Assembly (NCBI RefSeq): GCF_017565305.1
Contig: NZ_JAGEKP010000001.1
Coordinates: 62,001-126,000 of the forward strand
DNA length: 64,000 bases
Direction of reading: 5' to 3'
DNA from: Leifsonia sp. TF02-11
GTDB taxonomy: Bacteria; Actinomycetota; Actinomycetes; Actinomycetales; Microbacteriaceae
Under the pieces are notes generated by a model that was not told the origin of the DNA, did no database searches, and was given only the letters and a program-made list of their open reading frames with translations. The stretch's first letter is position 1; the number at the start of each line of letters is the position of its first letter. The position numbers and the translations under genes were made by a program. Of the stretch, positions 12,670 to 36,752 are shown piece after piece.

Positions 12670-12675
12670 TACGGT
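12670..12675 (+). promoter_or_regulatory. -10 box TACGGT before the tyrosine leader peptide
   Basis: TACGGT ends 7 nt before the ATG of the 18-codon leader ORF, implying a leaderless transcript that starts with the leader peptide. Confidence 0.5.
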
Positions 12676-12682
12676 TCTCTGC

Positions 12683-12739
12683 ATGCAGGCGCTTTCCTAC
12701 GCATATCTCCCGGCTCTGGTCAGAGCCGGCGTCGTGTAG
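12683..12739 (+). CDS. Tyrosine-containing leader peptide of the downstream tyrS
   Basis: The 18-codon ORF encodes MQALSYAYLPALVRAGVV and ends at TAG. Two Tyr codons (TAC at 12698, TAT at 12704) sit just before a perfect inverted repeat that encodes PALVRAG. It lies 118 nt upstream of a tyrosyl-tRNA synthetase gene and a promoter-like -10 precedes it. This is the arrangement expected of a ribosome-sensing attenuator that responds to charged tRNA-Tyr. The role is inferred from position, codons and downstream folds. Confidence 0.65.
   Translation: MQALSYAYLPALVRAGVV
12710..12729 (+). promoter_or_regulatory. Leader hairpin A:B
   Basis: An 8-bp stem (CCGGCTCT with AGAGCCGG) closes a 4-nt loop directly downstream of the Tyr codons. 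Arm A (GGCTCTG) can also pair with a second copy of CAGAGCC at 12760-12766. The 13-nt string TCTGGTCAGAGCC occurs exactly twice (12715-12727 and 12754-12766). Confidence 0.6.
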
Positions 12740-12756
12740 CGCGCTGTTTCGTATCT

Positions 12757-12821
12757 GGTCAGAGCCCTGAAGGCAAGGACATCCGTCCTTGCCTTTCGTG
12801 TATCCGCGGGAGGCTCTGGCC
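12757..12821 (+). promoter_or_regulatory. Attenuator region: terminator-like stem enclosed by an alternative stem
   Basis: A 12-bp hairpin (12769-12796, arms AAGGCAAGGAC and GTCCTTGCCTT, loop of 4) is followed by only three Ts. It is flanked by GGTCAGAGCC (12757-12766) and GGCTCTGGCC (12812-12821), which can pair with each other. Because CAGAGCC at 12760 can pair with either 12712-12718 or 12812-12818, mutually exclusive structures exist. An antiterminator overlapping the 12769 stem is not obvious, so the exact mechanism is open. Confidence 0.55.
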
Positions 12822-12856
12822 CGTCCATCCCTCTCGCCCGATGGAGAGGGAGACGC

Positions 12857-14068
12857 ATGTCTCACGCAGACGATGTCCTGGAGCCGATGTGGCGGACGAT
12901 CGACTCGATCGTCGACGAGGAGGGTCTTCGACGGCGCCTGGACGCCGGCGAGAAGCTCCGTATCAAGTACGGCGTGGATCTGACGGCTCCGGATCTGCAC
13001 CTCGGGCACGCCGTGAATCTCTGGTTGATGCGCCACCTCCAGAGCCGCGGGCACACGGTCGTCTTCCTGCTCGGTGATCTCACCACCCAGGTCGGTGACC
13101 CGACCGGCAAGTCGGAGACGAGGCCGGTGCTGTCCCGGGAGGCGATCGAGCAGAACGCTGCCGCCTTCCTGGACCAGGTGTCGATAGTGCTCGACACCGA
13201 CCCGGCCGTGTTCGAGGTGCGCCGCAACTCGGAGTGGTTCGAGCGGATGCCCATCCCGCAGCTGCTCGGGCTGTTCAGCCTGACGACCAACGCGCAGCTC
13301 ATGGCACGCGACATGTTCCGGGAGCGCGTCGCGAACGGCCGGGAGATCGCGCTGCACGAGCTGACCTACCCGGTGCTCCAGGGCTACGACAGCGTCGCGA
13401 TCGACAGCGACCTGACCATCGTCGGATCGGACCAGCTCTTCAACGAGATGATGGGTCGCCAGCTCCAGCAGCGCCTCGGAGCGCGACAGCAGGCGATCAT
13501 CACCACGGTCATCACACCGGGACTGGACGGCGGCCCCAAGCAGTCGAAGTCGCTCGGCAACTACGTGGCTCTGACCGACGCCCCCGCAGACAAGTTCGGC
13601 AAGATCATGAGCCTGTCCGACGAGCTCGTCGGTGTCTGGGCCGGCGCGTACACGACTCTCGACGATTCCCGGCTCGCAGAGCTGGAGCGCGCCGTCGCCG
13701 CCGGCGGCCCGGCGGCCAGGGACGCGAAGCTGACGCTCGCCGAGGCCGTCGTCGCGCGCTACCACGGCGCGGCGGCCGCGAGTCACGAGCGCGAGGCCTT
13801 CCTGAGCGTCTTCTCCGACGGTGCCGCCCCTGTCGACATTCTCGAGGTGGACGTCGCTGCGGAGACCGTCACTGTGCTGGCGTTGCTCGAACTCGTCAGA
13901 CCGGACCTCTCCCAATCGGCCAGGCGGCGCCTCCTCGCTCAGAACGCCGTCCGCATCGACGGGGAGCCGGTCAGCGACCCGGGGCTGTCGCTCACTCTCC
14001 GTGACGGGACCACCGTGCGCACCGGGCGACGGTCGTGGGCGCGGATCCGCGTGGGCAGGAACGTGTAG
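12857..14068 (+). CDS. tyrS: Tyrosyl-tRNA synthetase, TyrZ-like form
   Basis: This class I synthetase of 403 residues charges tRNA-Tyr. HIGH-type motif HLGHAVNLW is near residue 50 and the KMSKS-type motif KQSKSLGN near residue 228. LQGYDSVAIDSDLTIVGSDQ supplies the tyrosine pocket, and a C-terminal S4 RNA-binding domain (SARRRLLAQNAVRIDGEPV) follows. It differs clearly from the second tyrosyl synthetase at 35421 (KFGKS motif, different pocket), so the genome carries two types. This copy is the one preceded by the Tyr leader peptide, consistent with induction on tyrosine shortage or with an inhibitor-resistant back-up role. Confidence 0.9.
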   Translation: MSHADDVLEPMWRTIDSIVDEEGLRRRLDAGEKLRIKYGVDLTAPDLHLGHAVNLWLMRHLQSRGHTVVFLLGDLTTQVGDPTGKSETRPVLSREAIEQNAAAFLDQVSIVLDTDPAVFEVRRNSEWFERMPIPQLLGLFSLTTNAQLMARDMFRERVANGREIALHELTYPVLQGYDSVAIDSDLTIVGSDQLFNEMMGRQLQQRLGARQQAIITTVITPGLDGGPKQSKSLGNYVALTDAPADKFGKIMSLSDELVGVWAGAYTTLDDSRLAELERAVAAGGPAARDAKLTLAEAVVARYHGAAAASHEREAFLSVFSDGAAPVDILEVDVAAETVTVLALLELVRPDLSQSARRRLLAQNAVRIDGEPVSDPGLSLTLRDGTTVRTGRRSWARIRVGRNV

Positions 14069-35378: not shown

Positions 35379-35408
35379 TGCAACGCCGAGCCCGGTGACC
35401 GCCGCTGC

Positions 35409-35414
35409 TAGCCT
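35409..35414 (+). promoter_or_regulatory. -10 box TAGCCT, leaderless promoter
   Basis: TAGCCT ends 6 nt before the GTG of the second tyrosyl-tRNA synthetase. Confidence 0.5.
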
Positions 35415-35420
35415 GGGACC

Positions 35421-36752
35421 GTGCCAGAAACCGCCGCAGCCGCAGAACGGAGCAGCGCAGAGCAGAGGCTCAGCGCGCAGACCAACGACCCGACGTTCGC
35501 CGACGTCTGGGACGAGCTCACGTGGCGCGGACTCGTCCACGTCTCGACCGACGAATCCGCCCTCAAAGAGCTCCTCGCCGGCGACCCGATCACGTATTAC
35601 TGCGGTTTCGACCCGACGGCGCCCAGCCTCCACCTCGGCAACCTGGTGCAGCTCCTGCTGATGCGCCGCCTCCAGCTCGCCGGGCACAAGCCCCTCGGGC
35701 TCGTCGGCGGCTCCACCGGCCTCATCGGCGACCCGCGCCCGACCGCCGAGCGCACGCTGAACACGAAGGAGACCGTCTCGGAGTGGGTCGGCTACCTGCA
35801 GCAGCAGGTCACCCGCTTCCTGTCCTCCGAGGGCGACAACGCCGTGCGCCTGGTCAACAACCTCGACTGGACGGCGCCGCTGTCGGCGATCGACTTCCTG
35901 CGTGAGATCGGCAAGCACTTCCGCGTCGGCACGATGCTCAAGAAGGACGCCGTCGCGGCGCGCCTCAACTCCGACGAGGGCATCTCGTACACCGAGTTCA
36001 GCTACCAGATCCTGCAAGGCATGGACTTCCTGGAGCTCTACCGTCAGTACGGCTGCGTGTTGCAGACCGGTGGCAGCGACCAGTGGGGCAACCTCACGAG
36101 CGGCACCGACCTCATCCGCAAGGTGGAGGGCGCGCACGGCCACGCCATCGGCACGCCGCTCATCACCAACAGCGACGGGACCAAGTTCGGCAAGAGCGAG
36201 GGCAACGCGATCTGGCTCGACGCGAACCTCACCAGCCCGTACCGCATCTACCAGTTCTGGCTCAACGCCGACGATGCCGACGTCATCGACCGCCTCAAAG
36301 TCTTCACGTTCCTGCACCGCGACGAGATCGAGCGGCTCGAGCGCGCCGTCGCCGAGGAGCCGTTCCGCCGGGAGGCGCAGCGCCGCCTCGCCTACGAGGT
36401 GACCGCGCTCATCCACGGCGTGGAAGCGACGGAAGCCGTCATCGCCGCGTCGGAGGCGCTCTTCGGGCAGGGCGATCTGGCCGGGCAGGACACGGGGACA
36501 CTCGAGGCCGCGCTGCGCGAGCTGCCCAATACGATGACGGCGGCCTCCACCACGATCGCGCAGGCGCTCGTGGACACCGGCCTCACCAAGAGCCTCGGCG
36601 AGGCGCGCCGCGCGGTGGGCCAGGGCGGCGTCTACGTCAACAACGCCAAGGTCGAGGACGCCGACGTCGAGGTGGGGGAGCACCTGCTCCCCGGTGGGAT
36701 GGTCGTGCTGCGGCGCGGCAAGAAGACCCTCAGCGGCGTCTTCGTGGAGTGA
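35421..36752 (+). CDS. tyrS: Tyrosyl-tRNA synthetase, standard TyrS form
   Basis: The 443-residue class I synthetase has YYCGFDPTAPSLHLGNLVQL (HIGH motif near residue 70), YQILQGMDFLELYRQYGCVL, GGSDQWGNLTSG and the KMSKS-type KFGKSEGNAIWL near residue 254. A C-terminal S4 domain follows (SLGEARRAVGQGGVYVNNAK). The roughly 25-residue N-terminal extension is Ala/Glu-rich. This is the common bacterial type and probably the housekeeping enzyme. The other tyrS at 12857 has a leader peptide and different motifs. Confidence 0.93.
   Translation: MPETAAAAERSSAEQRLSAQTNDPTFADVWDELTWRGLVHVSTDESALKELLAGDPITYYCGFDPTAPSLHLGNLVQLLLMRRLQLAGHKPLGLVGGSTGLIGDPRPTAERTLNTKETVSEWVGYLQQQVTRFLSSEGDNAVRLVNNLDWTAPLSAIDFLREIGKHFRVGTMLKKDAVAARLNSDEGISYTEFSYQILQGMDFLELYRQYGCVLQTGGSDQWGNLTSGTDLIRKVEGAHGHAIGTPLITNSDGTKFGKSEGNAIWLDANLTSPYRIYQFWLNADDADVIDRLKVFTFLHRDEIERLERAVAEEPFRREAQRRLAYEVTALIHGVEATEAVIAASEALFGQGDLAGQDTGTLEAALRELPNTMTAASTTIAQALVDTGLTKSLGEARRAVGQGGVYVNNAKVEDADVEVGEHLLPGGMVVLRRGKKTLSGVFVE

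Follow-up and report, generated by a model that had tools for sequence, protein, structure and literature searches.

The window, i.e. the whole 64,000-nucleotide stretch of Leifsonia sp. TF02-11 DNA that we analysed, contains two tyrS genes, as a preliminary description made from the sequence had stated. The gene under study, tyrS1 (12857..14068, + strand), codes for a tyrosine--tRNA ligase of 403 residues. Its product scores 276.7 bits against the NCBIfam equivalog model TIGR00234 (cutoff 113.8) and matches PF00579, and its best solved chains, 6bqy ahead of 1h3e, are both tyrosine--tRNA ligases; the earlier assignment of this gene as a tyrosyl-tRNA synthetase is thus correct. The second tyrS was located by a sequence match within the window, as a 32% identical stretch at 35514..36491 (+ strand). 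Such a second tyrS, 27-34% identical to tyrS1, accompanies it in 18/18 genomes checked (its own, 6/6 and 11/11), and tyrS1 is an accessory synthetase gene. By eye, the second tyrS could be leaderless as well, with TAGCCT a few bases 5' of a GTG (35405-35423) that precedes the matched stretch. On the other side, a pyridoxal-dependent decarboxylase gene (PF00282; 11271-12659) ends just 5' of the tyrS1 promoter; specific models, including that of the tyrosine decarboxylase MfnA, score far under cutoff for this gene.

Genes of the tyrS1 type, defined as relatives at E 1e-90 or better, occur in 3/398 genomes at the family level and in 2 of the 28 of its own genus, all 28 of which match at E 0.001. 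The corresponding figures are 8/366 for the genus of G416, 6/394 for the class (four of the six being Frankia-like, at 48-49% identity), 45/342 for the order of G420 and 9/38 for the genus of G419, one of these nine being a fragment. No tyrS1 relative was detected in plasmid records at E 1e-60.

Upstream of tyrS1 lies the short leader ORF MQALSYAYLPALVRAGVV (12683..12739, + strand), with an ATG at 12683, 18 codons and a TAG stop codon at 12737-12739; it aligns without gaps across six leaders. A putative -10 element, TACGGT (12670..12675, + strand), is located 7 nt 5' of the ATG, and this spacing suggests leaderless translation of the ORF. A simple sigma70 scan of the window called no promoter at the leader. 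The 173-nt leader (12684-12856) folds better than 200/200 shuffled sequences (z -5.5). The exact 13-nt repeat reported in the preliminary description, TCTGGTCAGAGCC, is found at 12715-12727 and 12754-12766.

We read 65 upstream regions, those of the window and of 64 loci whose tyrS1 relatives have at least 54% identity and an intact 5' end; gene fragments lacking their 5' part (L013, L079 and L145), duplicates (L073-L078) and relatives below 54% identity were set aside. One layout is shared by 59 of the 65 regions, and the remaining six harbour a simpler Tyr leader. The 18-codon leaderless-looking ORF described earlier thus recurs in relatives, and this conservation rules out a chance ORF. The leader ORFs are 15 to 27 codons long, 39/59 having exactly 18, and start with GTG (36), ATG (22) or CTG (1). 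A TANNNT box lies 6-7 nt ahead of the start in 59/59 leaders, a count favoured by the choice of starts, as our script preferred boxed starts where several were possible. The peptides themselves vary, with YxPALxxAG in one group and YLDGSGVSR or YPHGSGTSR in others. In the group with 57-58% identity, PAL is lost, and the Tyr codon and the segment that we call arm A are retained; as the peptide is otherwise free to vary, it is the arm-A sequence rather than the peptide that is kept.

The preliminary description had pointed to two Tyr codons before the repeat. Both are present, TAC at 12698-12700 and TAT at 12704-12706, but only the second is conserved. It had also stated that non-conserved leader Tyr codons would speak against the proposal; this applies to codon 6 and not to codon 8, since TAT occupies the aligned position of the latter in 59/59 leaders. 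We regard this UAU (codon 8; 12704..12706, + strand) as the putative sensor codon. By script, the last Tyr codon is TAT in 58/59 leaders, and the exception (L139) has a later TAC as well as a TAT at aligned codon 7. A single Tyr codon is found in 54/59 leaders. At 49 of these loci, the tyrS genes together contain 327 TAC and four TAT codons, and the window tyrS1 has six TAC. The invariant UAU of the leaders (59/59) was compared with the 4/331 of the genes by a Fisher test, in which the rows are not independent. Arm A begins 3 nt past the sensor codon, and its GGCTC motif starts 5 nt past the Tyr codon in 46 leaders and 6 nt past it in 12. A short leader ORF with codons for the amino acid to be sensed, as in trp-type attenuators, is thus found in all 59 tyrS leaders, with a Tyr codon, and also in a second set of leaders, with Tyr, Trp and Phe codons.

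This second set was revealed by a covariance model, R1, built from 20 tyrS leaders. In the genus of 38 genomes that is probably Kribbella, R1 gives a strong match (81-137 bits) in 37, and 36 of these 37 matches are tyrS1 loci found in our order-level search. The leader of genome G1273 (L146), which has a strong match and looks intact, precedes a tyrS gene broken into two frames. A weaker full-length match is present elsewhere in 32/38 genomes of the genus. We read 23 such second places (22 of them full-length matches), and 23/23 contain an aromatic leader of the VKRSYWRFFEWPALVPG kind. Nine of them precede a gene for DAHP synthase, which catalyses the initial reaction of the aromatic amino acid pathway, as judged from the start of the protein. 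Run at E 0.003 over 340 class-level genomes, R1 matched in 45, own genome included; outside the latter, 43/45 places are aromatic leaders, with scores of up to 64 bits, and are spread over 15 genera. In total, 66/68 R1 places read are aromatic leaders. The class-level matches L204 and L212, as well as L171, proved on reading not to be leaders. In the Leifsonia genome itself, R1 has a single match, and no such leader was seen upstream of the second tyrS.

The aromatic leaders (L162-L170, L172-L203, L205-L211 and L213-L230) have Tyr, Trp and Phe codons and the same RNA layout as those of tyrS. In one of them, the DAHP synthase-type leader L230, the frame shifts after YWRF, yielding a different peptide end. 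Among the downstream proteins submitted to NCBIfam, 6/7 pass TIGR00034 (DAHP synthase). The protein of L184, a divergent DAHP synthase that also contains a chorismate mutase domain, falls under the NCBIfam cutoffs, and four further downstream fragments match PF00793; some of the remaining downstream genes were judged by eye. The aromatic leaders have 87 TTT and four TTC, 65 TAT and ten TAC, and 69 TGG codons. In 62 downstream gene stretches, we counted 268 TTC and no TTT, and 205 TAC and four TAT. A -10 box occurs 6-8 nt before the start in 66/66 aromatic leaders, a count again favoured by the choice of starts.

We then asked which segments of the leaders pair with one another. To this end, the duplex energies of segments from one and the same leader were compared with those obtained after shuffling the partners among the tyrS leaders of a clade; four clades were used (32, 9, 6 and 7 sequences), after dropping 5/59 leaders (L005, L106, L126, L129 and L130). 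We tested segments rather than columns because the column alignment of one helix, C:E, fails in the Kribbella group owing to a register shift. More than 100 segment pairs were tested, with segment borders and test chosen while viewing the data, and the p values given are uncorrected. The same tests were run on the aromatic leaders, with 4/66 rows falling outside the clade groups (L181, L186, L214 and L230); for the pair F:G, another 4/66 have no assigned start (L202, L210, L183 and L185).

The upstream half of the leader comprises several segments that can pair in alternative ways (all on the + strand). Segment H, the 5' half of the leader ORF (12683..12703), pairs with the linker L, 3' of the stop codon (12739..12753), with a z of -5.9 within tyrS clades, and of -2.5 within and -6.4 across clades in aromatic leaders. 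Arm A, CCGGCTCTGG (12710..12719), can pair with B or C. The signal for A:B is z -2.4 within tyrS clades and -1.7 (p 0.047) within aromatic ones; A:C hardly varies in tyrS leaders (z -1.0 within, -3.8 across). The loop and arm B (J/B; 12717..12729) contribute the pair J:C5' (z -2.6 within and -4.8 across tyrS clades; -0.9 and -4.8 for aromatic leaders, with A/J:C at -3.2 within). Arm C, CTGGTCAGAGCC (12755..12766), can pair with A/J or with the downstream arm E, GGCTCTGGCC (12812..12821). The signal for C:E is z -5.6 across tyrS clades and weak within them (-1.6, p 0.067), and it is z -2.1 within and -5.8 across clades in aromatic leaders.

Between C and E stands hairpin D (12769..12796, + strand), a terminator-like stem of 12 bp with strands 12769-12780 and 12785-12796. 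It has a z of -6.3 within tyrS clades, with compensatory pairs by column, and of -8.4 within aromatic ones. It is followed by a U-rich tail (12794..12803, + strand). At least four U in the 10 nt past D are found in 57/57 tyrS leaders that have D and in 66/66 aromatic leaders, with means of 5.6 and 6.3 U, where leader composition would predict 1.8 and 1.9. Since D is never without this tail in the leaders of either set, the hairpin is probably an intrinsic terminator; by sequence, a candidate U-tract terminator thus precedes the gene in 57/59 tyrS and 66/66 aromatic leaders. A simple terminator scan of the window did not flag D and flagged another stem, at 12727-12746.

Beyond D, arm P, GCGGGAGG (12806..12813), pairs with arm F, TCCCTCTCGC (12828..12837), and could act as an anti-anti-Shine-Dalgarno segment, as F can instead pair with strand G (12844..12851), which contains the tyrS1 Shine-Dalgarno sequence GAGAGGGA (all on the + strand). 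Within tyrS clades, the z values are -2.5 for P:F, -3.4 for F:G and -4.3 for E:F, and within aromatic clades -3.6, -3.9 and -4.6. As P:F and F:G share F, they are mutually exclusive, and both are supported within clades, as befits a switch at the Shine-Dalgarno sequence. The covariation analysis of aligned tyrS leaders proposed in the preliminary description supports A:B, J:C5', H:L, D, P:F and F:G within clades. In the 62 aromatic leaders, A:B, A/J:C, H:L, D, P:F and C:E have p values below 0.05 within clades, as has F:G in 58.

No upstream segment pairs consistently with either strand of D in the tests on tyrS or aromatic leaders. In tyrS leaders, B:D5' has a z of +3.7 and B:D3' of -0.7 within clades; the values for aromatic leaders are -4.7 within and +2.5 across (0.2 kcal) for B:D5', and -2.7 and -0.8 for B:D3'. 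The signal for B:D3' across tyrS clades (z -4.5) vanished within clades, which indicates that tests across clades are inflated by kinship. With no consistent upstream partner of D, there is no antiterminator of the classical kind, and part of the output is thus probably translational. The earlier proposal that arms A to D pair alternatively around a 12-bp terminator consequently stands in part: the stem is real, its tail is U-rich in relatives and the alternative arms are present, but no arm pairs consistently with the stem, more arms exist, and the covarying relay runs past the stem to the Shine-Dalgarno sequence. Pairing of E with the tyrS coding start (E:T) or of H with the Shine-Dalgarno region (H:G2) gave no signal in the main leader type. 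Some signals fall outside our model, namely H:F (p 0.028), A:E (p 0.059) and C:F (p 0.062) in tyrS leaders, and C:F (z -2.2 within, -3.9 across) and H:E (-2.1 within, +0.1 across) in aromatic leaders.

To see how translation of the leader could shift these pairings, we computed constrained nested folds of 54 tyrS and 62 aromatic leaders with a ribosome placed at given positions. With the ribosome on the Tyr codon of tyrS leaders, A/J:C decreases from 4.8 to 2.6 pairs and C:E increases from 6.2 to 7.7; with the ribosome at the stop codon, there are 6.5 and 3.0 pairs, respectively. In these folds, the sensor half thus behaves like a classical attenuator. In aromatic leaders, a stall at the last aromatic codon has a similar effect, with A/J:C going from 8.3 to 2.6 and C:E from 2.6 to 7.1 pairs. 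When the stall is placed on the first aromatic codon instead, arm A remains free and the shift is reversed (A/J:C 7.2 to 9.8, C:E 2.6 to 0.8); a single rule thus fails to cover every sensor position.

The predicted effect at the Shine-Dalgarno sequence is less clear-cut. Its mean openness in tyrS leaders is 0.42 both without a ribosome and with one on the Tyr codon, and 0.40 with one at the stop codon; upon stalling, 11 of the 54 leaders show an increase and 10 a decrease, in nested folds that do not allow pseudoknots. Two other sets of folds gave no clear change upon stalling either. In the nested folds, stalling lowers P:F from 3.0 to 1.7 pairs, by itself the wrong direction, and a ribosome at the stop codon raises it from 3.0 to 5.1. 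A geometry in which at least five pairs of C fit inside the P:F loop, as required for a pseudoknot, is available in 38/54 tyrS and 35/57 aromatic leaders, and in only 1/10 leaders of one clade.

From these observations we propose the following mechanism. The tyrS1 mRNA would begin at or beside the start codon of the leader, and the 18-codon ORF would be translated while the RNA emerges. When charged tRNA-Tyr is short, the ribosome would stall with the rare UAU of codon 8 in its A site. A ribosome covers about 15 nt ahead of its P site. At this distance, the stalled ribosome is predicted to cover H and arm A, in which case H:L, A:B and A:C cannot form. When tRNA-Tyr is plentiful, the ribosome would pass, and C would be captured by A/J, or the H:L/A:B hairpin would refold. 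Arm C would thus be the switch strand between A/J and E. As E/P, F and the Shine-Dalgarno strand extend this relay, translation of the leader would be read out at the tyrS1 ribosome-binding site, and hairpin D with its U-rich tail, a probable intrinsic terminator, would add a transcriptional layer. A rise of TyrRS upon tyrosine shortage requires that tyrS1 be ON when C is paired with E. In our preferred reading, C:E and P:F would coexist in a pseudoknot, so that F is no longer available for pairing with the Shine-Dalgarno sequence, and tyrS1 would be induced on Tyr shortage.

The steps of this mechanism differ in strength. We consider it highly likely that translation of the leader senses Tyr. 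That it does so for tyrS1, setting aside the last step at the ribosome-binding site, is almost as probable judging from the sequences. The peptide-based Tyr switch for an actinobacterial tyrS put forward in the preliminary description thus finds strong support at the sequence level, from the invariant UAU, the leaderless layout, the alternative helices and the DAHP synthase leaders. We have moderate confidence in the output mechanism overall, and the pseudoknot with its translational output is a tentative proposal. Points that weigh against our reading are the presence of a single sensor codon, the C:E signal that falls short of significance within tyrS clades, the missing antiterminator partner of D, the unchanged openness of the Shine-Dalgarno strand in the folds and the opposite shift caused by a stall at the first aromatic codon.

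The output could instead be purely transcriptional, with D as the sole gate, stalling lowering termination without any pairing to D, and the Shine-Dalgarno hairpin being constitutive; termination might then depend, for instance, on which state arm C, immediately 5' of D, is in, or on coupling between RNA polymerase and the ribosome. D is indeed the best supported helix, with its U-tail in 57/57 and 66/66 leaders, and terminators are part of several known leader-peptide systems of actinobacteria as described in the available portions of reports on trp, trpS and leuS (PMC1262725) and on aroF (PMC11802643). Such a scheme must contend with the lack of a segment pairing consistently with D5' or D3' and with the support for both P:F and F:G in the two sets of leaders. 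Moreover, two tyrS leaders (L129 and L130) are devoid of D by eye and yet keep A, B, C, P and F, and no U-tailed stem was seen by eye in the six simpler Tyr leaders. We thus regard an exclusively transcriptional output as rather unlikely. By eye, L129 and L130 also have an F:G of different build in addition to P:F.

Nor do we favour an opposite sign of regulation, in which complete translation of the leader would switch tyrS1 ON. In the nested folds, a ribosome at the stop codon does give A/J:C and more P:F, the state expected to free the Shine-Dalgarno sequence, but the openness of the latter is not raised in this situation. Such positive feedback would be at odds with a synthetase gene and would leave unexplained both the rare UAU and the presence of Tyr, Trp and Phe codons before a biosynthetic gene, which makes this possibility improbable. 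Tyrosine genes of other bacteria are under T-box control, according to the available part of PMC1262725, and the RNA might accordingly be a T-box or a riboswitch binding tRNA or tyrosine, with the small ORF being incidental. However, neither a T-box nor any other Rfam family was matched by the window (at gathering score) or by ten loci drawn from both sets of leaders (at E 0.01), the ORF is conserved together with its start box and Tyr codon, unlike the other codons, and related leaders also carry Trp and Phe codons; this alternative is thus highly improbable. Returning to our preferred reading, we are somewhat inclined to view the leaders of both sets as members of a single, as yet undescribed actinobacterial RNA family that controls aromatic genes. 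It would combine a leaderless sensor ORF with rare codons ending in U and a conserved A/J-C-E/P-F-Shine-Dalgarno strand-exchange relay around a terminator, with specificity set by the codons alone, i.e. Tyr, Trp and Phe for DAHP synthase, and Tyr only for the patchily distributed accessory tyrS.

Related systems are found in other actinobacteria. Vecchione and Sello reportedly described, in 2010, an auxiliary tryptophanyl-tRNA synthetase of Streptomyces that is controlled by ribosome-mediated transcriptional attenuation and linked to antibiotic resistance; that system resembles ours in combining an accessory synthetase with ribosome-mediated attenuation, but it responds to Trp rather than Tyr. 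Likewise, Canestrari and co-workers are said to have described, in 2020, attenuators with leaderless poly-Cys short ORFs in mycobacteria, which would share with the tyrS leader a leaderless actinobacterial sensor ORF but have a run of Cys codons. In Corynebacterium glutamicum, the aroR leader, with its Phe-Tyr-Phe sequence, precedes aroF, coding for DAHP synthase, and ribosome stalling has been reported (Neshat et al. 2014; PMC4046766, PMC11802643, in the portions available). The aromatic leaders presented here share with aroR both the aromatic codons in a leader peptide and the DAHP synthase gene; unlike aroR, they have Tyr, Trp and Phe codons, and the tyrS leader has Tyr only and precedes tyrS. 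According to the available part of PMC11802643, Tyr availability has no effect on the C. glutamicum aroF operon. Leader-peptide attenuators were also predicted before trp, trpS, leuS and other genes in actinobacteria (Seliverstov et al. 2005; PMC1262725, available part). Those of trpS and leuS similarly are leader peptides preceding actinobacterial synthetase genes, but they involve other amino acids and structures, and, according to the same part of that study, the actinobacterial genomes examined at the time showed no conserved RNA structures ahead of their tyrosine operons. A study of Streptomyces lividans describes eight leader peptides, several of them leaderless, and the words tyrosine, phenylalanine and tyrS are absent from its available text (PMC8079986). 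In our literature search, mostly without subscription papers, neither a leader peptide that senses tyrosine ahead of tyrS nor a leader of a DAHP synthase gene from a genus other than Corynebacterium came up.

If our interpretation is correct, the codons sensed by such leaders are Tyr in the case of an accessory tyrS, and Tyr together with Trp and Phe in that of DAHP synthase genes from additional genera. The textbook scheme does not provide for a relay that leads around a terminator to the Shine-Dalgarno sequence and lacks an antiterminator; such a relay would illustrate how two gates can be driven by one leader peptide. The rare sensor codons ending in U are a directly testable feature, and the choice of codons may determine to which amino acid a sensor of this type responds.

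The six simpler Tyr leaders (L128, L131, L132, L135, L136 and L137) code for peptides of the MIGSQQRYRR type, and the codons at their 5' end form pairs across the region of the tyrS start, with the Tyr codon in an internal loop; in L131, the helix takes in the tyrS start codon. They resemble the LEU element, which, according to the available part of PMC1262725, pairs leader codons with the Shine-Dalgarno box. Placing a ribosome on the Tyr codon of these six leaders abolishes the enclosing helix in the folds, and the mean openness of the Shine-Dalgarno sequence is clearly up in 0/6. By eye, no leader was seen before the Frankia-type tyrS relatives with 48-49% identity (L032-L034 and L090-L093). 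In MAGs of alphaproteobacteria or Micavibrio, short Tyr-rich ORFs at about -140 to -190, followed by hairpins, precede eight tyrS genes (L009, L010, L011, L012, L014, L015, L024 and L025); the ORFs, e.g. MKIAVRTYSYSNYYPNRG and MKRESRLYYPALYCSRFGK, apparently belong to a separate Tyr leader system.
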